Shown here piece after piece: positions 28,109-64,000 of a stretch of 64,000 nucleotides of DNA. Positions within the stretch are counted from its first letter, which is position 1, and the number at the start of each line of letters is the position of its first letter. Made by a program: the position numbers and the translations under genes. The notes under the pieces were generated by a model. That model saw nothing but the letters and a program-made list of their open reading frames with translations, was not told the DNA's origin and ran no database searches. Source of the stretch: Streptomyces sannanensis (GTDB taxonomy: Bacteria; Actinomycetota; Actinomycetes; Streptomycetales; Streptomycetaceae); NCBI RefSeq assembly GCF_039536205.1, contig NZ_BAAAYL010000001.1, positions 2,046,001 through 2,110,000 on the forward strand, given 5' to 3'.

Positions 28109-28516
28109 GGCAGACGAGTCGGGCTGTACGCCGGGTTCTGTCACCCGGTGACCTCGCGGTCGCCGGGGAGACGGCCATCCATCTAGGACCGACGTTGCCG
28201 CCGGCCTCGTGCGGTCTACCCGCGGACTCGGGCGGGCAGCCCTCGAACGTCCGCGCAGGACCGTCTTGCGACGGCCCCTCTTGACCTTGCTCCAGGTGGG
28301 GTTTACCTAGCCGCCTGGGTCACCCCAGGCGCTGGTGGTCTCTTACACCACCGTTTCACCCTTACCGAGGGCCGAGGCCCCCGGCGGTCTGCTTTCTGTG
28401 GCACTGTCCCGCGGGTCACCCCGGGTGGGCGTTACCCACCACCCTGCCCTGTGGAGCCCGGACGTTCCTCGGAGGGATCGGAATCCTCCCGCGGCCGTCC
28501 GCCCGGCTCGTCTGCC
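28109..28516 (-). ncRNA. rnpB: RNase P RNA (type A)
   Basis: Catalytic RNA that matures tRNA 5' ends. Helix P1 is formed by GGCAGACGAG (start of the RNA, near 28516) and CTCGTCTGCC (28109-28118). Universally conserved cores are visible on the minus strand: GAGGAACGTCCGGGCTCC (P3/P4 region), GGGTGAAACGGTGG, AGACCACCAG, CAAGGTCAAGAGGGG and near the 3' end GTGACAGAACCCGGCGTACA. Length of about 408 nt matches streptomycete RNase P RNA. Exact ends are estimated from P1 only. Confidence 0.97.
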
Positions 28517-53741: not shown

Positions 53742-55547
53742 ATGTCCGCACCGCAGTTCTCGCCGAGCCGCAGATCGGCCCTCGCCGCCCTGGCCGGAGT
53801 CGCGGCGGGCGGCTCGCTGCCGTTCACCCCGTCCGCCGCCGCGGCCACGCCGGCCACGGCGGCAGCCACGACCACCGCGCCGGACGCCGCCGCGCCGGCG
53901 TCCGGCGGACGGGTTCCGGTGGTGATGGACGCGTCGGACCCGTGGCACTTCGCCGCCCACCCGGCGGGGGCGCTGACCCCCCGTACGCTCCCCGGGACCC
54001 CCGCGTGCCTGGAGGTGTCGGACGGCCAGGGAGTGCTTGCCACCCTCACCACCGGTGCCAGGACGGTGACGCTGCGCGGGCCGAAGCGCTGGTTCACCGA
54101 GCAGAAGAAACTGTTCAGCGAGCCGGAGAAACACCCCGACCCGGAGAAACGGTTCACCGATGACTTCGACCGGACCCTGACCGGCACCGGCTGGGGCTCC
54201 TCCCCCTGCTTCGGCACCTGGACCACCCACAACGGCGCCGACGGGGACTACTTCCTGCAGGGCGGCCGGGCCGTCATCCAGCTCGCCACCACCAACCTCA
54301 GCCGCCACGCGCTGCTCTCCGACAAGGCCGTCGGCGACGTCACCGCCGCCGCCCGCGTCTCCCTCGACAAGGTCCCCACGGGTGCGCCCGTCTCGGTGGC
54401 CCTCACCTTCGCGGCCCGGGACGTCAACAACCACTACCGGGCACGGCTGATCTTCACCCCCGCGGGCGAGGTCCAGTTCCTGCTGGAGAAGGAACTGGCC
54501 GACGTCGCCGGCGTCCTGAGCCCGGCCGTCACGGTCAGCACCGACTTCACGGCCTTCGACCACTGGTGGATCCAGGTGGAGAAGACCGGCGGCGTGCTGC
54601 GCGCCCGCGCCTGGCGGAAAGGCAGCGCCAAGCCCGACTGGCAGCACAGCCTGCGCGACCCCGAGAAGGACCCGGCCAAGGTCTTCGACGCCGGCACCCT
54701 CGGGATCCGGGCGCTGGCCTCCAGCGGCGCCACGGTGCCCCTGCAGGCCCGGATCTACGACTTCGAGATCACCGCGGCCGAGTGGGCCGAACCGCCGGTC
54801 GTCGCCCACGACACCTGGGTACGGGTGCTGCCCGAGCCCTTCGACGGCACCTGGACCCCCGCCCTGGAGCAGCGGATCGGCGCCTGGGCGGGCGACACCT
54901 CCCCCGACGCCCTCGCGTACGCCTCGATGTATCGGACCTTCGCCCCCGCCGTGACCGACACTGCGCTCCAGGACGCACAGGTCATCGGAGAGGCCGGGTA
55001 CAGCCCGAAGGACGATGCGGGACGGCGCTCCATCGGCGCCGACTTCCACGAGTACATGGCTCTGCCCTGGACCTTCCCCGCGAGCGGCGAGAGCGCACCG
55101 AACCCGGACCCGAAGTGGAAGGGGTACCTCGACTGCTCGGGCTTCGTCCGGATGGTCTACGGACACCACATGGGCATCCCGATGGTCCTCGACAAGAACT
55201 TCGACGGCCGCAACCTGCCCCGCCGCTCGAGGGACCAGTCCGCCTCCGGCCCCGGCGTGGTCGTCGCGCAGGGCACGGGCGCGGCGCCCTCGCTCGCCGC
55301 GCTGCGGATCGGTGACGTGGTCTTCTTCGACGCCACCGCCGACTCCGACAGTCCCGAGACCCCCGGCGGGGTGGTCGACCACACCGGCATCTACGTCGGC
55401 CAGGACCAGCAGGGCAAACTGCGCTTCGTCTCCAGCCGCAAGACGCCCAACGGGCCGACCATGGCGGACCTCGGTGCCAAGTCGATCCTCAACGGCGCTC
55501 CCGGTGACCTGTACACCAAGTCGCTGCGGGTGATCCGGCGGTTCTGA
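53742..55547 (+). CDS. Tat-exported NlpC/P60-type hydrolase with concanavalin-like domain
   Basis: 601 residues. The twin-arginine signal is PSRRSALAALAGVAAGGSLP, followed by a Thr/Ala linker. A middle beta region (FTDDFDRTLTGTGW ... DHWWIQVEKTGGVLRARAWR) looks like a lectin/glucanase jelly roll. The C-terminal part is NlpC/P60: catalytic Cys in GYLDCSGFVRMVYG and His in GGVVDHTGIYVGQ. It should cut peptidoglycan stem peptides or a similar gamma-D-Glu bond outside the cell. ATG 53742; ribosome site not strong. Confidence 0.88.
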   Translation: MSAPQFSPSRRSALAALAGVAAGGSLPFTPSAAAATPATAAATTTAPDAAAPASGGRVPVVMDASDPWHFAAHPAGALTPRTLPGTPACLEVSDGQGVLATLTTGARTVTLRGPKRWFTEQKKLFSEPEKHPDPEKRFTDDFDRTLTGTGWGSSPCFGTWTTHNGADGDYFLQGGRAVIQLATTNLSRHALLSDKAVGDVTAAARVSLDKVPTGAPVSVALTFAARDVNNHYRARLIFTPAGEVQFLLEKELADVAGVLSPAVTVSTDFTAFDHWWIQVEKTGGVLRARAWRKGSAKPDWQHSLRDPEKDPAKVFDAGTLGIRALASSGATVPLQARIYDFEITAAEWAEPPVVAHDTWVRVLPEPFDGTWTPALEQRIGAWAGDTSPDALAYASMYRTFAPAVTDTALQDAQVIGEAGYSPKDDAGRRSIGADFHEYMALPWTFPASGESAPNPDPKWKGYLDCSGFVRMVYGHHMGIPMVLDKNFDGRNLPRRSRDQSASGPGVVVAQGTGAAPSLAALRIGDVVFFDATADSDSPETPGGVVDHTGIYVGQDQQGKLRFVSSRKTPNGPTMADLGAKSILNGAPGDLYTKSLRVIRRF

Positions 55548-55602: not shown

Positions 55603-55651
55603 CGCCCGCCTGAGGCGGCCGTGGTACCAGTCGCTACAGTGGGCGGGTCGT

Positions 55652-55760
55652 CATCAAGCCCGTACGGGGGGAAGCCGGTGCGAATCCGGCACTGACCCGC
55701 AGCCGTGTGAACCGCCGTCGCCTCGCCGTCGGCGGTAAGTCGGAATGCCTCGTACGGGAT
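55652..55760 (+). promoter_or_regulatory. cobalamin riboswitch aptamer
   Basis: P1 is an 8-bp perfect helix: CCCGTACG (55659-55666) with CGTACGGG (55751-55758). Inside lie the conserved core words GGGGAAGCCGGTGCGAATCC, GGCACTGACCCGCAGCCGTG and AAGTCGGAATGCCTCG, hallmarks of adenosylcobalamin-type aptamers. Downstream (to about 55850) CGGAGCCGGAG and CACCG pairings around CAGGAGAGG could form the expression platform, hiding the ribosome site of the first gene when B12 is bound. It is expected to shut off the ECF operon in B12-replete cells. Confidence 0.95.
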
Positions 55761-55856
55761 TTCCCTGGTGACCGGCACCGTCGAGGTTACGGAGCCGGAG
55801 CTGGGCGCCTCCGTGTGCCGGTGTTCCGGTTCCCCGCAGGAGAGGCACCGCCCGTC

Positions 55857-57104
55857 ATGACCGTCGTACGCCGCCGCAGCGCAGCCGCGCTCGCCGCAGC
55901 CGCCGCTGTGCTCTGCACGGCCGCCGCCCCTGCCGTCGCCGCGCCGTCCCCCGCGCCCAAGATCCCCGCAGGGCTGTACGGCGCGAACGACCCGACGTAC
56001 GACGGCGTCTGGCGGCAGTCGCTGGCCCTGCTGGCCCAGGACACCGTGGGCGTCGAGCCCGCGAAGCAGGCCGTCGACTGGCTGACCGGCCAGCAGTGCG
56101 CGAACGGCGGCTTCGCCTCGTACCGCGCCGACGCCGCCAAGGCGTGCGACGCCAAGACCATGCTGGACACCAACGCCACCGCCGCCGCCGTGCAGGCCCT
56201 GGCCGCGCTCGGCGGGCACGGGAACGAGGTGAAGAAGAGCACCGCCTGGCTGAAGTCCGTGCAGAACGAGGACGGCGGCTGGAGCTACAACCCGGGCGGG
56301 GCGAGCGACGCGAACTCCACGTCGGTCGTGATCGGCGCGCTGGCCGCGGCGGGCGAGAAGCCGGGTGACGTCAAGTCGAAGCAGGGCAAGTCGCCCTACG
56401 ACTCGCTGGTGTCCTTCGCGATCCCGTGCGGAGGCAAGGACGGCGGTGCGTTCGCGTATCAGCCGGACAAGTCGGGCACGTTGTACGCCAACGCGGACGC
56501 CACGGCCGCAGCGGTGCTGGGCGGGCTGGGCAAGGGCCTGGTGATCGACAATCCGAAGCCCCTTGCCGATCCGGTCTGCGAGAACGCGGCCAAGCCCACC
56601 GCGGAGCAGGCCGCCGGCAACGGCGCCGCCTACCTCGCCGGTGCCCTCGCCAAGACCGGTCATCTGATGTCGGCCATGCCCGGCGCCGAGGACCAGCCGG
56701 ACTTCGGCAACACCGCCGACGCGGTCATCGCCCTCGGGGCCTCGCTCCACGGCGACAAGGCAGCCGACGCGCTGCGCTGGCTCGAGAGCAACTCGGCCGC
56801 CTGGGCGAAGGAGAACGGCCCCGCCGCCTACGCCCAGCTGATCCTCGCGGCGAACGCCATCGGCTTCGACCCGCGCTCCTTCGGCGGCGCGAACCTCGTC
56901 CAGCAGCTGAACGCGACCGGCCCCAAGCCCGCAGCCGAGGCTGCCGTCACCCCGAGCCCCACGGCGGCCGAAACCCCGGACAAGGCCACAGAAGAGAAGA
57001 AGGACGACAACGGCGGCCTCGGCGTCGGGTGGATCATCGGCATCGGCCTCGTCGCCGGTATCGGCATCGGCATCCTCATCTCGGGCCGCAAGAAGAACCA
57101 GTAG
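55857..57104 (+). CDS. exported C-terminally anchored prenyltransferase/squalene-cyclase-fold protein, putative B12-binding
   Basis: 415 residues. Sec signal (RRRSAAALAAAAAVLCTAAA). The mature part has repeated alpha/alpha hairpins: AVDWLTGQQCANGGFASYR, STAWLKSVQNEDGGWSYNPG, FAYQPDKSGTLYANADATAA, GNGAAYLAGALAKTGH and LRWLESNSAAWAKENGPA. A Pro/Thr linker, one C-terminal membrane segment (GWIIGIGLVAGIGIGILIS) and a basic tail follow. The same fold forms the B12-binding barrel of transcobalamin and intrinsic factor. As first gene of a B12-riboswitch operon it is probably the extracytoplasmic B12 catcher. ATG 55857, AGGAGAGG upstream. Confidence 0.85.
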   Translation: MTVVRRRSAAALAAAAAVLCTAAAPAVAAPSPAPKIPAGLYGANDPTYDGVWRQSLALLAQDTVGVEPAKQAVDWLTGQQCANGGFASYRADAAKACDAKTMLDTNATAAAVQALAALGGHGNEVKKSTAWLKSVQNEDGGWSYNPGGASDANSTSVVIGALAAAGEKPGDVKSKQGKSPYDSLVSFAIPCGGKDGGAFAYQPDKSGTLYANADATAAAVLGGLGKGLVIDNPKPLADPVCENAAKPTAEQAAGNGAAYLAGALAKTGHLMSAMPGAEDQPDFGNTADAVIALGASLHGDKAADALRWLESNSAAWAKENGPAAYAQLILAANAIGFDPRSFGGANLVQQLNATGPKPAAEAAVTPSPTAAETPDKATEEKKDDNGGLGVGWIIGIGLVAGIGIGILISGRKKNQ

Positions 57105-57109
57105 CCGTG

Positions 57110-57763
57110 ATGCCGATACGCACGCGCCCGGCCGCCCTGGCCCTCGCGCCCCTCGCCGTGCTCGCGGTGCTCGGCGGCGCGGGGACCGCCGAGGCGGCCG
57201 GATACCGGTACTGGTCGTTCTGGGACCGCCAGGGCGACGCCTGGGTGTACGCCACTCAGGGCCCGGCCACCGCCCGCCCCGCCGACGGGGACGTACAGGG
57301 CTTCCGGTTCGCGGTCAGCGAGGACTCGCAGGACGCCGACAAGCCGCGCGGTGCCGCGGACTTCGACGCCGTCTGCGGTTCGACGCCCGCGAAGGACGGC
57401 ACCAAGCGGGTCGCCCTCGTCCTCGACTTCGGCACGCCGCAGGACGCCCCCGGCGGTGAGACGCCGCCCGCACCCCGTACCGCGTGTGCGCAGGTCGGCG
57501 TGGACGCGACCAGCGCTGAGGCGCTCGCGGCCGTCGCGAAGCCGCTGCGTTACAACAGCGCCGCGCTGCTGTGCTCGATCGCCGGGTATCCGAAGTCCGG
57601 CTGCGGCGAGCAGATATCGGGCGGGGCGGCCGAGAAGCCGGCCGCCCCGGACAAGGGCGGCGGTGACGGCGGACCGGCCGTCGGCATCGTCGCCGGTGCC
57701 GTCGCCGTGGTCGCCCTGGGCGCGGCCGCCGTCGTGCAGACGCGCCGCCGCCGGCGCGGATGA
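57110..57763 (+). CDS. exported anchored protein (SCO2322-like) of the ECF operon
   Basis: 217 residues. Signal peptide (RPAALALAPLAVLAVLGGAG ... AEAA), a mature domain with Trp-rich GYRYWSFWDRQGDAWVYATQ and FRFAVSEDSQDADKPRGAAD, several Cys (FDAVCGS; TACAQVG; LLCSIAGYPKSGCGEQ), then a C-terminal membrane segment (GIVAGAVAVVALGAAAVV) and RRRRRG. It resembles an actinobacterial family named after S. coelicolor SCO2322 (recalled). The ATG lies 5 nt after the previous stop and it overlaps the permease gene by 4 nt. Probable partner of the capture protein. Confidence 0.8.
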   Translation: MPIRTRPAALALAPLAVLAVLGGAGTAEAAGYRYWSFWDRQGDAWVYATQGPATARPADGDVQGFRFAVSEDSQDADKPRGAADFDAVCGSTPAKDGTKRVALVLDFGTPQDAPGGETPPAPRTACAQVGVDATSAEALAAVAKPLRYNSAALLCSIAGYPKSGCGEQISGGAAEKPAAPDKGGGDGGPAVGIVAGAVAVVALGAAAVVQTRRRRRG

Positions 57764-58893
57764 ACCGGGAACGCCTGCGCGGCACCGCGGTCCGCCGTGC
57801 ACGGCTCCGCGCCCCCGAGGCGAACCGCGCCAACGCGCTGCACCCCGGCGCCTGGTGGCTGTGGGCGCTCGGGCTGGCCACCGCCGCGTCCCGTACCACC
57901 AATCCGCTCCTCCTCGGGCTGCTCGTCGGCGTCGCCGGATACGTCGTCGCCGCGCGGCGCACCGATGCGCCGTGGGCCCGCTCCTACAGCGCGTTCGTCA
58001 AACTCGGGCTGCTGGTCGTCGCGATCCGGCTGATCTTCAACGTCGTCCTCGGCTCGCCGGTCCCCGGCAGCCACGTCCTCTTCACGCTGCCCGAAGTCCC
58101 GCTGCCCGACTGGGCGCAGGGGATACGGATCGGCGGGCGGGTGACCGCCGAGGGCATGGTCTTCGCGCTGTACGACGGGGCCAAGCTGGCCACCCTGCTC
58201 ATCTGCGTGGGCGCCGCCAACGCCCTCGCCAATCCCGCGCGACTGCTCAAGTCGCTGCCAGGTGCGCTGTACGAGGCCGGGGTCGCCGTGGTCGTCGCGA
58301 TGACGTTCGCGCCGAACATGGTCGCCGACGTGGCACGGCTGCGCACCGCGCGGCGGCTGCGCGGGCGGTCCACGGGTGGCATGCGGGCCGTGCTCCAGAT
58401 CGGCCTGCCGGTGCTGGAAGGTGCGCTGGAGCGGTCGGTCGCCGTGGCCGCGTCGATGGACGCGCGCGGCTACGGGCGTACGGCCAGGGTCCCGGCCGCC
58501 GTGCGGCACACCACGAACGCGCTGACGCTCGGCGGGCTGCTCGGCGTGTGCGCCGGTACGTACGGGCTGCTGGCCGCGGAGGGCGCCGGTTACGGGCTGC
58601 CGGTGCTGGCCGCCGGGCTCGTCGCCGCGCTCGCGGGGCTGCGGCTGGGCGGCCGCCGCACGGTGCGCACGCGTTACCGGCCGGACCGGTGGGGCGTACG
58701 GGCCTGGCTGGTCGCGGGCTCGGGCGTGGCCGTCGCGGCGTTGTTCGTCCTGGCGGGTACGTACGATCCGCAGGGCCTGCACCCGGGTGTGGTGCCGCTG
58801 ACCGCGCCGGTGCTGCCGCTGTGGCCCGCCGCGGCCGTACTGATCGGGCTGCTGCCCGCCGTTGTCGCCCCCGTACCCAAGGAGTCTCCGTGA
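57760..58893 (+). CDS. ECF transporter T component (EcfT/CbiQ family)
   Basis: 377 residues with about six to seven hydrophobic segments. NPLLLGLLVGVAGYVVAARR at the start, LPGALYEAGVAVVVAMTFAP, and the coupling-helix motif AASMDARGYGRTARVP (the A-R-G signature binding the ATPase groove) identify an EcfT. It transmits ATP hydrolysis to the S component. ATG overlaps the preceding stop (ATGA). A second transmembrane block of about 120 residues after the coupling helix makes it longer than typical EcfT proteins (about 265). Confidence 0.92.
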   Translation: MNRERLRGTAVRRARLRAPEANRANALHPGAWWLWALGLATAASRTTNPLLLGLLVGVAGYVVAARRTDAPWARSYSAFVKLGLLVVAIRLIFNVVLGSPVPGSHVLFTLPEVPLPDWAQGIRIGGRVTAEGMVFALYDGAKLATLLICVGAANALANPARLLKSLPGALYEAGVAVVVAMTFAPNMVADVARLRTARRLRGRSTGGMRAVLQIGLPVLEGALERSVAVAASMDARGYGRTARVPAAVRHTTNALTLGGLLGVCAGTYGLLAAEGAGYGLPVLAAGLVAALAGLRLGGRRTVRTRYRPDRWGVRAWLVAGSGVAVAALFVLAGTYDPQGLHPGVVPLTAPVLPLWPAAAVLIGLLPAVVAPVPKESP

Positions 58894-60863
58894 TCCGGTT
58901 CGAGAACGTGTCGGTCACGTACGACGACGCCGCGGGGCCGACGCTCCGCGGGGTCGATCTGACCGTGCCCGAGGGCGAACTCGTGCTGCTCGTCGGCCCG
59001 TCCGGAGTCGGCAAGTCGACGCTGCTGGGCACGGTGTCGGGTCTGGTGCCCCACTTCAGCGGCGGCACGCTGGCGGGGCGGGTGACAGTCGACGGCCGGG
59101 ACACCCGCACCCACAAACCGCGTGAACTCGCCGATGTCGTCGGGACGGTCGGCCAGGACCCGCTCGCCCACTTCGTGACCGACACGGTCGAGGACGAACT
59201 GGCCTACGGCATGGAGTCCCTGGGCATCGCGCCCGATGTGATGCGGCGGCGTGTCGAGGAGACCCTTGACCTCCTCGGGCTCGCGGAGCTGCGCGACCGG
59301 CCGATCGCCACGCTGTCGGGCGGGCAGCAGCAGCGGGTCGCGATCGGCTCGGTGCTGACCACCCATCCCAAGGTGCTGGTGCTGGACGAGCCCACCTCGG
59401 CCCTGGACCCGGCGGCGGCGGAGGACGTTCTGGCGGTGCTCCAGCGCCTCGTCCACGATCTGGGGACGACGGTGCTCATGGCCGAGCACCGGCTGGAGCG
59501 GGTGGTGCAGTACGCGGACCGGGTGATCCTGCTGCCGGGTCCCGGCGAGGCGCCGGTGCTCGGCACGCCCGCCGAGATCATGGCGGTCTCCCCGGTCCAC
59601 CCGCCGGTGGTCGCCCTGGGTCGCGCGGCGGGCTGGGACCCGCTGCCCCTGTCGATACGCGACGCCCGCCGCCAGGCGGCGGACCTGCGGGAACGGCTGT
59701 CGGGGCACGAGCCGCGCAGTGCGGGCGCAGGGGGTGGCTTCTCCCCCACCCCGCCCCTTCCCGAAAGCGGGGGCACGCCCCCGGACCCCCGCCCCCGCGA
59801 GGTCGCGGCCGCGCTTCGGGCCGGCCGGCAGGCAGGCTCGGGCCCGCTCGCGACCGGCTCGGACATACCTGTCGGCGCGGCACGCGCCGAAGCAGAGGAC
59901 CTGGCTGGTGCCCCGGCTTCCGGGCCTGCGGTCCCGGGTACGGTCCGCGGCACCACCTCCGGGGCCACCGGCGCAGGAGCCGATGAGCACCCGGGGCCGC
60001 GCGCACGGGTGGCCGCCGTCCGGAACACGCTCGGCCGGCTGCTGCGGCGGAACCGCGCCGCGGCGGCCGACGGCACGGCACCCGGCACGGGAGGGCCCGC
60101 GGCCGACGTTCGGGCGCTCGGCGTCCGGCGCGGCCGCGTCGAGGCGCTGCGGCGCGTCGATCTCACGGTCACGCCCGGCGAGACGATCGCCCTCATGGGC
60201 CGCAACGGCGCCGGGAAGTCCACCCTGCTGGGCACACTGGTCGGCACCGTGGAGCCCACCTCGGGCACGGTCGCCGTCGGCGGGCTCACGCCGCGGCGGA
60301 CGGCGCCGCGCGAACTGATCCGCCGCGTGGGGCTCGTACCGCAGGAGCCGCGGGATCTGCTCTACGCGGACACGGTCGCCGCCGAGTGTGCCGCGGCCGA
60401 CGCGGATGCCGGGGCCGCGCCGGGGAGCTGCCGGGCGCTGGTTGCCGAGCTGCTGCCCGGCATAGCGGACGACACGCATCCGCGCGATCTGTCGGAGGGG
60501 CAGCGGCTGGCGCTGGCGCTCGCGGTCGTCCTGACCGGCAGGCCTCCGCTGCTGCTGCTCGACGAGCCGACACGCGGACTGGACTACGCGGCGAAGGCCC
60601 GCCTGGTGGGTGTGCTGCGCGCGCTCGCGGCACAGGGGCATGCGATCGTGCTGGCCACACACGATGTGGAGCTGGCGGCGGAGCTGGCCGACCGGGTGGT
60701 GATCCTGGCCGACGGCGAGGTCGTCGCGGACGGGCCGACGGCGGAGGTCGTGGTGGCGTCGCCGGCCTTCGCGCCGCAGGTCAGCAAGGTGCTGGCGCCC
60801 CAGAAATGGCTCACGGTCACGCAGGTGCGCGAGGCGCTGGACCGTACGAAGGCGCCGGCATGA
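58890..60863 (+). CDS. ECF transporter fused double ATPase (EcfA-A')
   Basis: 657 residues, two ABC domains in one chain. The first has Walker A GPSGVGKST (36-44), signature LSGGQQQRVAIG and Walker B VLVLDEPTSALD. The second has Walker A GRNGAGKST (about 437-445), signature LSEGQRLALALA and LLLLDEPTRGLD. The linker (about 270-400) is Pro/Gly/Ala-rich and includes FSPTPPLPESGGTPPDPRPR, translated from a GGGGGCACGCCCCC mini-element. GTG 58890 overlaps the T gene (GTGA) and the stop overlaps the S gene (ATGA). Confidence 0.95.
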   Translation: MIRFENVSVTYDDAAGPTLRGVDLTVPEGELVLLVGPSGVGKSTLLGTVSGLVPHFSGGTLAGRVTVDGRDTRTHKPRELADVVGTVGQDPLAHFVTDTVEDELAYGMESLGIAPDVMRRRVEETLDLLGLAELRDRPIATLSGGQQQRVAIGSVLTTHPKVLVLDEPTSALDPAAAEDVLAVLQRLVHDLGTTVLMAEHRLERVVQYADRVILLPGPGEAPVLGTPAEIMAVSPVHPPVVALGRAAGWDPLPLSIRDARRQAADLRERLSGHEPRSAGAGGGFSPTPPLPESGGTPPDPRPREVAAALRAGRQAGSGPLATGSDIPVGAARAEAEDLAGAPASGPAVPGTVRGTTSGATGAGADEHPGPRARVAAVRNTLGRLLRRNRAAAADGTAPGTGGPAADVRALGVRRGRVEALRRVDLTVTPGETIALMGRNGAGKSTLLGTLVGTVEPTSGTVAVGGLTPRRTAPRELIRRVGLVPQEPRDLLYADTVAAECAAADADAGAAPGSCRALVAELLPGIADDTHPRDLSEGQRLALALAVVLTGRPPLLLLDEPTRGLDYAAKARLVGVLRALAAQGHAIVLATHDVELAAELADRVVILADGEVVADGPTAEVVVASPAFAPQVSKVLAPQKWLTVTQVREALDRTKAPA

Positions 60864-61681
60864 CCCGGCAGGCACGGCCCGTGCGGCTGGGTGCGCGGGC
60901 CGTCGTCGCGCTGGTGCTGGTCGGCGCGGTCGGGGTGGCCGCCTTCGGGTGGCCGTTGCTGGCCGGCGCGGGGTCCGGGGTGACGGCTCACGCCGCCGAC
61001 GCGCCGTGGCTGTTCGCCGTGCTGCTGCCGCTGCTGGTCGCGGTCGTCGTGGCGACGATCGCGGACGGCGGTCTGGACGCCAAGGCCGTGGCGATGCTGG
61101 GGGTGCTGGCCGCGGTGGGCGCGGCGCTGCGACCGCTGGGGGCGGGGACGGCGGGGCTGGAGCCGATGTTCTTCCTGATGGTGCTGAGCGGCCGGGTACT
61201 GGGCCCGGGCTTCGGCTTCGTGCTCGGCGCGGTCACGATGTTCGCGTCGGCGCTGCTGACCGGCGGGGTGGGGCCGTGGATGCCGTTCCAGATGCTGGCG
61301 ATGGGCTGGTTCACGATGGGCGCCGGGCTGCTGCCGAGGCCGGACGGGCTCCGGGGCAGGGCCGAGCTGCTGATGCTCGCCGGGTACGGGTGCCTGGCCG
61401 CCTTCGCCTACGGGACGGTCATGAACCTTCAGGGCTGGACCTACATAGGGGGACTGTCCTCCGGGATCTCCTTCCACCCGGGGGACCCGCTGCACGAGAA
61501 CCTGACCCGTTTCCTGGCGTACTGCGCGGCGACCTCGCTCGGCTGGGACCTGGGCCGGGCCGTCATGACGGTCGTACTGACGCTGACGGTCGGCGGGACC
61601 GTGCTCAGGGCGCTGCGCAGGGCCACCCGACGTGCCAACTTCGAGGCCCAGGTCACATTCGAGGCCTCGGAACGGCCGTAA
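60860..61681 (+). CDS. ECF transporter S component, predicted for cobalamin
   Basis: 273 residues, about six to seven membrane segments: VVALVLVGAVGVAAFGWPLL, WLFAVLLPLLVAVVVATIA, VAMLGVLAAVGAALRPLG, FFLMVLSGRVLGPGFGFVLG, and MPFQMLAMGWFTMGAGLLP. The binding subunit of an energy-coupling factor transporter, with substrate set by context: the riboswitch says cobalamin. Resemblance to CbrT, an S component for B12, is inferred from context, not from an alignment. Last gene of the operon. Confidence 0.87.
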   Translation: MTRQARPVRLGARAVVALVLVGAVGVAAFGWPLLAGAGSGVTAHAADAPWLFAVLLPLLVAVVVATIADGGLDAKAVAMLGVLAAVGAALRPLGAGTAGLEPMFFLMVLSGRVLGPGFGFVLGAVTMFASALLTGGVGPWMPFQMLAMGWFTMGAGLLPRPDGLRGRAELLMLAGYGCLAAFAYGTVMNLQGWTYIGGLSSGISFHPGDPLHENLTRFLAYCAATSLGWDLGRAVMTVVLTLTVGGTVLRALRRATRRANFEAQVTFEASERP

Positions 61682-62031: not shown

Positions 62032-62439
62032 GTGACCCGCTCGCTGATCTCCCGCTTCGCCACCCGTCGCACCAAGAACGCCGCTGTCGGCACCGCCGTG
62101 CTCCTCGGCTCCGTCGGTGGGGTGTTCGCTTCCACCACCTCGGCCGCTGCCGCCACTCCGCAGATGATCGCGAAGCAGATGATCGGCAACAGCGCCCAGT
62201 TCCAGTGCTTCCACAACATCGTGTCGCGCGAGAGCAGCTGGAACCCGCACGCCACCAACGCCTCCTCCGGCGCCTACGGTCTGGTACAGGCCCTGCCGGC
62301 CTCGAAGATGGCCTCCGCCGGCGCGGACTGGAAGACGAACCCGAAGACCCAGATCAAGTGGGGTCTGAACTACATGAACAGCCGCTACGGCAGCCCGTGC
62401 GACGCCTGGAAGTTCTGGCAGAAGAACAACTGGTACTAA
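62032..62439 (+). CDS. small secreted SLT-type lytic transglycosylase
   Basis: 135 residues. Signal peptide (KNAAVGTAVLLGSVGGVFAS ... AAAA). Lysozyme-like domain with the catalytic Glu in CFHNIVSRESSWNPHATN, then SSGAYGLVQALPASKM, and IKWGLNYMNSRYGSPCDAWK with two Cys for a disulfide. It cleaves peptidoglycan glycan strands during growth or spore germination. GTG 62032 follows AAGGA. Like other small streptomycete SLT proteins it lacks extra anchoring domains. Confidence 0.92.
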   Translation: MTRSLISRFATRRTKNAAVGTAVLLGSVGGVFASTTSAAAATPQMIAKQMIGNSAQFQCFHNIVSRESSWNPHATNASSGAYGLVQALPASKMASAGADWKTNPKTQIKWGLNYMNSRYGSPCDAWKFWQKNNWY

Positions 62440-62687: not shown

Positions 62688-64000
62688 CTACCGGGCCGCG
62701 CCCGGTAGAGGGCCGGGGCCACTGCTGCCCGCGGTGCGCGCAGGCAGCAGGGGGCCCGTATCCGTCTCGGCGCTGCCCGCCGCCACGACGACCTGGCGGG
62801 GACCGGCCAGTACATACGTGAGGCCGAAGCCCGCCGCGACGACCGTCGCACCGCCGACCGCATCCAGCACCCAGTGATTGGCCGTGACGACGATCGCGAT
62901 CACCGTGAACGTCGGGTGCAGCAGCCCCAGCGCCTTCATCCACACCTTCGGGGCCAGCATCGCGATCACCACACCGCACCACAGCGACCAGCCGAAATGC
63001 AGCGAGGGCATCGCCGCGTACTGGTTGGTCACCTCGGTCATCGCACCGTAGTCGGGGTTCGTCAGATCCTGCGGACCGTGCACGGTGTCGATGAAGCCCA
63101 GGCCCGGCATCAGCCGCGGCGGGGCGAGCGGGAAGAACCAGAAACCGATGAGCGCCAGCATCGTGGCGAAGCCGAGGGAAGCACGCGCCCAGCGGTAGTC
63201 GGCAGGACGGCGGGCGTAGAGCACACCGAGGATCGTCAGCGGCACCACGAAGTGGAAGGAGGTGTAGTAGAAGTTGAAGAAGCCCTCCAGCCAGCCGATC
63301 CCGTGCACGACGTGGTTGGCCCAGTGCTCGATGTCGATGTGCAGCGCGCGCTCGATCGCGACGATGTGCCCGCCGTGCTCCTCCGCCGCCTCGCGCCCGC
63401 CGGTCGCCGCGAGCCTGATCTGCGAATAACAGGAGTAGCCGACCCGGATCACCAGAAGTTCCAGCAGCAGATTGGGGCGGCTGAGCACCCGGCGCCAGAA
63501 CGGCATCAGCGGAACGTGCCGCCATCGTGCCGGAACCGGCGTCCCGTACTCCGTGGGCACCGGATGGTGGAAGTACGGCGAACTGCGCGGCAGGAACGGC
63601 ACCGCACAGGCGGCGGCCAGCGCCACCAGCAGCAGCACGTTGTCCCGCACCGGATACAGCACCGCGATGTTCGGCAGCAGCATGGTGCCCGGCAGCGTCA
63701 TCACCAGCACCACGGCCACCGGCCACACCATCCGGTCCGCGGCCCTGACGCCGACCCGGCCGGACACCGCCGGCAGCACCCACAGCAGCTGGTGCTGCCA
63801 GGCCGTCGGGGACACCGCCACCGCCACACAGCCGGTCAGTGCCACCGCGAGCAGCAGCTGACCGTCCCGCGCATACCGCACCGCGCGCCGCAGCCCCACC
63901 AGCACGACCACGGCGGCCAGCGGCAGGAACAGCGCGAGCTCCAGCGGCCCGTGCACCCCGAACCGCAGCAGCGCACCGTGCAGCGACTGGTTGGCCAGAC
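62688..64000 (-). CDS. bifunctional GT87 / PAP2 membrane enzyme, C-terminal part (5' end outside window)
   Basis: At least 437 residues, open to the right edge where it reads LANQSLHGALLRFGVHGPLE, a GT87 (arabinofuranosyl/mannosyltransferase-like) helix signature. The C-terminal half is a PAP2/inositolphosphotransferase-like domain: AMPSLHFGWSLW carries the catalytic-type His, followed by VIAIVVTANHWVLDAVGGA with a second His and Asp. Such fusions are annotated as bifunctional glycosyltransferase/phosphatase and are thought to act on polyprenyl-phosphate sugars or phospholipids. The N-terminal GT active site is outside the window. Confidence 0.85.
   Translation of the reverse strand, partial: LANQSLHGALLRFGVHGPLELALFLPLAAVVVLVGLRRAVRYARDGQLLLAVALTGCVAVAVSPTAWQHQLLWVLPAVSGRVGVRAADRMVWPVAVVLVMTLPGTMLLPNIAVLYPVRDNVLLLVALAAACAVPFLPRSSPYFHHPVPTEYGTPVPARWRHVPLMPFWRRVLSRPNLLLELLVIRVGYSCYSQIRLAATGGREAAEEHGGHIVAIERALHIDIEHWANHVVHGIGWLEGFFNFYYTSFHFVVPLTILGVLYARRPADYRWARASLGFATMLALIGFWFFPLAPPRLMPGLGFIDTVHGPQDLTNPDYGAMTEVTNQYAAMPSLHFGWSLWCGVVIAMLAPKVWMKALGLLHPTFTVIAIVVTANHWVLDAVGGATVVAAGFGLTYVLAGPRQVVVAAGSAETDTGPLLPARTAGSSGPGPLPGAAR

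Follow-up and report, generated by a model that had tools for sequence, protein, structure and literature searches.

We analysed a 64,000-nt window of the Streptomyces sannanensis genome (NZ_BAAAYL010000001.1, 2,046,001-2,110,000; all positions are counted within this window), which contains a cobalamin riboswitch followed by a five-gene operon on the plus strand. The operon encodes two exported proteins, A (55857-57104) and B (57110-57763), an EcfT-like transmembrane protein C (57760-58893), a fused double ATPase D (58890-60863) of the energy-coupling factor (ECF) type, and a putative corrinoid-binding membrane subunit, the S component E (60860-61681). The genes are as tightly packed as an initial annotation of the window had described, with one gap of 5 nt between A and B and three overlaps of 4 nt, one before each of C, D, and E. 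Here, we focus on the two exported proteins, which appear to be circular permutants of their counterparts in sister operons, and on their putative part in corrinoid uptake.

The aptamer spans 55659-55758 (+). Its RF00174 match at 55669-55749 (+) scores 33.8 bits against a gathering score of 31.5 (E 7.1e-5 for the window), and the P1 helix is closed by perfect pairing over 8 bp, 55659-55666 with 55751-55758, which bears out the aptamer proposed in the initial annotation. It is the weakest of the five RF00174 matches in the S. sannanensis genome. The leader (55640-55875) folds no better than shuffled sequences (z -0.57; 52 of 200 shuffles equal or better), so the case for the aptamer stands on the Rfam score and on conservation. 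An ungapped scan found the aptamer core, with at most 8 mismatches in 28, in 29 of 37 leaders including that of the window. Among Streptomyces leaders, 1 of 12 predicted pairs has a sequence altered on both sides, in an alignment that is poor at the 3-prime part; we base no argument on this covariation. A possible ribosome-binding site of the first gene, GGAGAGG, lies at 55839-55845 (+).

Gene A encodes a predicted alpha-alpha toroid of the SCO2321 family (NF053823, 611 bits; PF13243/PF00432), and gene B encodes a predicted beta-domain protein of the SCO2322 family (NF040672, 238 bits). By hydropathy, each has a hydrophobic stretch near the N-terminus and a membrane stretch at the C-terminus, consistent with the exported, C-terminally anchored proteins of the initial annotation. 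SCO2321 (NF053823) and SCO2322 (NF040672; PF28005) are family names that carry no function. Of the top 120 homologues listed for A and for B, all that carry an organism name belong to Streptomyces. The annotated transporter parts were compared with family models as well. Gene D matches PF00005 in two stretches and has ECF ATPase models as its best matches (TIGR04521, 300 bits, cut-off 330), with the cbiO model TIGR01166 passing its cut-off (255 bits, cut-off 211.8). The EcfT-like and S-component-like scores fall slightly below the Pfam cut-offs: gene C, which is conserved in the operon, matches PF02361 CbiQ with 24.6 bits (cut-off 25.0), and gene E, supported by a 33-sequence alignment, matches PF12822 with 26.6 bits (cut-off 30.7).

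Partial SCO2322 matches led us to proteins in the same slot of sister operons (loci L174 and L177-L183) whose two halves stand in the opposite order, referred to here as family N. The four family N proteins tried match no Pfam family, and the one tried against NF040672 matches it in part only. In profile comparisons with hhalign, which left out pieces shorter than set limits, SCO2322 in its native order aligns with family N as two separate and swapped halves. Residues 32-73 or so of gene B (57203-57328, +) correspond to the C-terminal half of family N and DUF4430 (score 86, template columns 81-123 of 134), and residues 99-167 or so (57404-57610, +) correspond to the N-terminal half (score 82, columns 10-76 of 134). 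Rotated SCO2322 gives 159 over 114 columns. A rotation scan raised the score from 87 in native order to 158, with the cut at domain columns 56-72; the highest scores among 30 block shuffles and 30 column shuffles were 89 and 22, and a repeat with 28 family N sequences gave 157. On these profile comparisons, SCO2322 and family N are related by circular permutation, which is reported here as new; an earlier account of a SCO2321 or SCO2322 permutation was not found among the matches listed in the open-licence literature.

Family N is itself colinear with DUF4430 (PF14478) and remotely related to it, as judged from a score of 40.5 (E 1.3e-6 for one comparison) over 79 columns spanning both halves; rotation adds 0.2 at the most, and none of 20 column shuffles exceeds 13. 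PF14478 found no SCO2322 match in a hidden Markov model search against Pfam, with either the native domain or a tandem copy, and profile-profile comparison was used for this reason. In that comparison, SCO2322 aligns with DUF4430 over 45 columns in native order (30.8, the segment at residues 99-167) and over 82 columns when rotated (31.1). SCO2322 thus appears to be a relative of DUF4430/PF14478 that is not filed as a member. When the DUF4430 profile of sister operons was searched against the PDB, the first matches were 3u7z (E 0.0065), a translation factor (0.012), and, in third place, transcobalamin-1 (0.018), with transcobalamin-2 at 0.61. PDB searches with the family N profile returned neither transcobalamin nor CbrT.

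The toroid protein shows the same kind of rearrangement. When SCO2321 is compared with the toroids of N-type operons, the score is 272 over 193 columns in native order and 387 over 284 columns after rotation, with the cut near residue 240-252. The native match covers about residues 37-243 of gene A (55965-56585, +), which correspond to the C-terminal part of the sister-operon toroids; a second native-order match (129) pairs about residues 247-354 (56595-56918, +) with their N-terminal part. Against the toroids of DUF4430 operons, the score rises from 112 over 141 columns to 165 over 266 upon rotation. The N-type and DUF4430-type toroids are colinear with each other (262 over 266 columns): the best rotation gains at most one point, and cutting mid-way reduces the score by half. 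The shuffle controls were run for the beta domain, and the toroid rotation was judged on coverage. Rings of repeats can slip in register; rotated SCO2321 matches span 284-287 of 348 toroid columns, and this coverage favours a shift of the ring as a whole, which amounts to a circular permutation. By this comparison SCO2321 is also permuted relative to sister-operon toroids.

We then counted the two forms, leaving out loci with a best beta-domain score below 60; the counts are of related loci and not of independent events. A toroid match was present in the stretch read at 62 of 90 SCO2322-type loci, and all 62 were in the SCO2321 order (36 of them Streptomyces and Kitasatospora loci; L108 was judged from two matches). 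A toroid accompanies 22 of the 32 N-type loci, in the other order in 19, mixed in L226 and L239, and undecided in L230. In the two mixed loci, a C-half toroid match precedes a match that also reaches the C-half. The resulting pattern looks like C-half, N-half, C-half, as for a tandem intermediate, with some of the scores low. Several loci carry duplicates: L181 bears two toroid-N pairs, L217, L226, L238, L239, and L240 have a second N protein, and L237 has a second toroid. Such duplicates could be a source of permutation through duplication and loss. As a separate observation, metE lies upstream at L181 (9555-12899), with four cobalamin riboswitches nearby, beside the double toroid-N operon. 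One same-genus genome, G089, holds both operon forms, SCO2322 and family N (L174, L236).

Two trees place the change of form differently. The beta-domain tree (48 rows, SH-aLRT 91, quick method) needs one change between the forms, and the ECF-module tree (42 rows) needs four, of which the starred branches force at least two. This conflict over the number of permutations may come from gene exchange between operons or from an error in one tree. If the DUF4430 operons are the outgroup, the place they were given in tree building, the SCO2321/SCO2322 order would be the derived one.

The regulatory context points to corrinoids. The other four RF00174 switches of the S. sannanensis genome precede cbiB/cobQ/cobB, cbiM, cobN, and nrdAB, with functions in B12 synthesis, cobalt uptake, and ribonucleotide reduction of the NrdA/B kind. 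For other loci, a switch of the cobalamin clan was counted when RF00174, RF01482, or RF01689 reached its gathering score. A same-strand switch stands directly before the operon at 14 of 21 distant SCO2322-type loci (at L078 it sits elsewhere, and L079 starts at a contig end), and a switch is in place at 7 of 16 family N operons, in L225 between two toroids. In operons that combine DUF4430, ECF genes, and a toroid, a same-strand switch of 71.8-115.7 bits lies 1-4 kb upstream of the DUF4430 gene in 9 of 10 cases, the intervening genes not having been examined; the tenth operon, L165, runs into the end of its contig. A switch was present at one of six other DUF4430 loci. The initial reading as a B12-regulated, ECF-type uptake operon with exported proteins of its own is supported, and corrinoid uptake, with the corrinoid as the putative ligand, is well supported by context.

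The operon is present across Actinomycetota, often behind B12 riboswitches. The initial annotation had described it as seemingly conserved in streptomycetes; the conservation holds, and the range reaches far beyond them. Of 394 genomes sampled from the class, 162 gave an NF040672 match at E 0.001; the match passed the cut-off in 135, and the weaker ones include family N. Among same-genus genomes, 39 are listed with SCO2322 and one without. Some SCO2322 relatives (L088, L098, L112, L117, L118, L124, L125), a few accompanied by a toroid, were seen with no adjoining EcfT-ATPase-S genes in the stretch read, and at L117 an ATPase match lies on the opposite strand.

The need of carriers for B12 was assessed in 20 chosen non-Streptomyces carriers, mostly small genomes (sixteen of group f25, 1.3-2.2 Mb), and in four genomes of the genus Streptomyces. 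CbiC, which marks de novo synthesis, was detected in 0/20 and 4/4, respectively. The B12-dependent reductase NrdJ is present in 20/20 and 4/4, and the MetH domain in 16/20 and 4/4. The FecCD permease (BtuC family) has no match in 6 of the 20 non-Streptomyces carriers and a match only below the cut-off in 2 more, which leaves the ECF system as the sole importer candidate in these eight among the families searched. The f25 genomes are probably of the acI lineage. For small freshwater-type genomes that lack the marker of B12 synthesis, the operon may be a principal route by which this required vitamin enters the cell.

The toroid can be absent. We chose 20 SCO2322-bearing genomes for the lack of a visible toroid next to the operon (the locus was read in 19, not in G102), and 19 of the 20 have no NF053823 match anywhere; in G327 a match lies on another contig, and G253 is only 75% complete. 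In f25, the beta proteins of 5 of 7 loci (L082, L086, L090, L092, L105; not L095 and L104) have no C-terminal membrane stretch and reach no further than about 150 residues from where the domain begins. The hydropathy limit used also fails to register the likely anchors of L174 and L182, but in f25 the protein chain stops directly behind the domain. Of the two exported proteins, the one with the beta domain is constant, and the mechanism must work without the toroid and sometimes without the anchor, as these loci require. The initial annotation had singled out the barrel protein, here the toroid, for B12-binding tests. The results shift that emphasis to the second protein, as 19 of the 20 chosen genomes are without the SCO2321 family.

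Taken together, we favour, with a probability of roughly 0.7, the reading that the operon is a corrinoid (B12) salvage system in which a transcobalamin-like exported pair, both members permuted, works with an ECF importer. When B12 is scarce, the riboswitch would permit the making of the five gene products; we infer both the direction and the mechanism of this control. Outside the cell, the anchored toroid (SCO2321) and the beta-grasp-like domain (SCO2322) would hold the corrinoid between them, as the two domains of transcobalamin do, and hand it over to the S component. Driven by the double ATPase and EcfT, the S component would move the corrinoid across the membrane. Corrinoid binding, the pairing of the exported proteins, and the hand-over are steps that we infer from these comparisons. 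A more specific joint picture, which we put forward only tentatively, is a two-chain, membrane-anchored, transcobalamin-like clamp whose halves were both permuted in one lineage to match the geometry with the membrane and the S component. Where the toroid was lost, the beta domain would close on B12 held by the S component, which would replace the transcobalamin toroid.

Several observations weigh against the salvage reading. Among Streptomyces-type loci, a cobalamin-clan switch exceeds the gathering score in only 3 of 10, and no switch was in place at that score in 7 of the 21 SCO2322-type and 9 of the 16 N-type loci scanned. S. sannanensis itself has B12 synthesis genes, so uptake by this operon would be salvage. 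The S-component profile found 0 PDB matches at E up to 10, and hence not CbrT, and phmmer returned nothing relevant. The toroid profiles (A3, A6) matched terpene cyclases, prenyltransferases, and weak others in the PDB and no transcobalamin. FecCD permease scores over its cut-off in 12 of the 20 non-synthesising carriers (barely in G091), so another B12 importer is possible there. Finally, SCO2322 compared with DUF4430 alone scores 33.0 in native order and 33.9 in the best rotation, equal to the block-shuffle maximum of 33.9, and the permutation of SCO2322 is therefore shown through family N.

This last result could also be taken to mean that the permutations are artefacts, of internal repeats in the toroid or of convergent motifs in the beta domain. 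Toroids do consist of repeats that resemble one another, and secondary matches in a shifted register are also seen. However, the rotated matches span most of the toroid, as given above, and 112-114 beta-domain columns, the beta domain scores far above its shuffles, and rotation gains nothing where N is compared with DUF4430 or N-type with DUF4430-type toroids, so that we consider an artefact very improbable. The choice of ligand leaves somewhat more room. B12 riboswitches also govern cobalt systems and synthesis genes, as they do in the S. sannanensis genome, and among characterised proteins the S component has no relative by sequence; the imported ligand might then be cobalt, a different vitamin, or a precursor of corrinoids, for example cobinamide. 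Cobalt was set aside as the main substrate and is unlikely in that role because S. sannanensis has a CbiM system for cobalt elsewhere in its genome, preceded by a riboswitch of its own. Carriers with NrdJ yet no CbiC need a near-complete corrinoid, although this still allows cobinamide. We therefore regard import of another ligand as unlikely overall.

A different role for SCO2322 deserves more weight. CbiN and NikN are structural accessory subunits of ECF complexes, and SCO2322 might likewise stabilise or gate the S component without catching B12, with the toroid optional. SCO2322 stays with EcfT, the ATPase, and the S component where the toroid is gone, and the f25 beta proteins without a C-terminal membrane stretch (5 of 7) may be held by the transporter. 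Against this, the two proteins show matched forms at toroid-bearing loci, and the link between family N and DUF4430 suggests a beta-grasp clade that binds ligands (PMC1796856). We see the accessory role as a possibility somewhat on the doubtful side; the odds given to it and to the other explanations overlap with those of the salvage reading and are not exclusive shares.

The proposal has a precedent. Burroughs et al. 2007 (PMC1796856, consulted in part) described bacterial transcobalamin-like SLBB proteins, their fusions with toroids, and operons in which they occur together with CbiO/CbiQ-like genes; scavenging of B12 was the role proposed. The view of the initial annotation that the proposed role of the exported proteins was not established needs a correction: extracellular B12 capture by a toroid and a beta-grasp domain for a CbiO/CbiQ transporter was already predicted in that work, for transcobalamin-like SLBB proteins. 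The DUF4430 (PF14478)/SLBB operons resemble the present one in having an exported beta-grasp-type domain and a toroid beside CbiO/CbiQ-like genes, whereas here the two domains are separate anchored proteins and both appear permuted. Neither 'Streptomyces' nor 'permut' was found in the text of PMC1796856 available to us, and the companion paper PMC1949818 uses 'circular permut' twice, for the E1/UFD domain in the passages seen. Among the open-licence papers listed, one contains SCO2321, and it concerns a cell-penetrating peptide.

A 2017 study (PMC5301498, seen in part) interpreted an ECF module preceded by cobalamin riboswitches as a putative cobalamin transporter in four genomes of the freshwater acI lineage, and reported no cobalamin pathway in four strains. 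It is probably the same kind of operon, as f25 genomes carry SCO2322-EcfT-ATPase-S genes behind AdoCbl/cobalamin switches; unlike the SCO2321-bearing operon, the f25/acI loci are mostly without the toroid and often without an anchor on the beta protein. Like the importer proposed here, ECF-CbrT of Lactobacillus delbrueckii (PMC5997447) is an ECF-type B12 importer. According to the passages seen, CbrT and other S components use one ECF module in common, and these passages name no exported capture protein. No sequence relation between CbrT and the S component studied here was found, the profile of the latter having no PDB match. With regard to animal transcobalamin, no sequence relation of the operon toroid to the transcobalamin toroid was found, and for the beta domain the link would run through DUF4430, whose sister-operon profile matches transcobalamin-1 weakly. 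BtuCDF is an ATP-driven B12 importer with an external binding protein. The present system would likewise be ATP-driven and use exported proteins, but the products of the operon do not match BtuCDF as a family, A and B match no BtuF-type family, and the best BtuF score in the S. sannanensis genome is 24.8 bits against a cut-off of 234. The salvage reading would give SCO2321 and SCO2322/PF28005, families of unstated function, a testable role in B12 capture and would tie them to the animal kind of B12 carrier. If true, the matched circular permutation of both partners within a single operon would stand out as unusual in evolution, with a testable interaction geometry.

Around the operon, an exported-looking protein of 601 residues, with no Pfam match at 1e-5, is encoded directly upstream of the aptamer (53742-55547, +). 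Downstream lie genes for a small transglycosylase SLT-domain protein (62032-62439, +) and a PAP2-family protein (62688-63956, -). Elsewhere in the window, a bacterial RNase P class A RNA was identified at 28111-28510 (-) with 289.8 bits.

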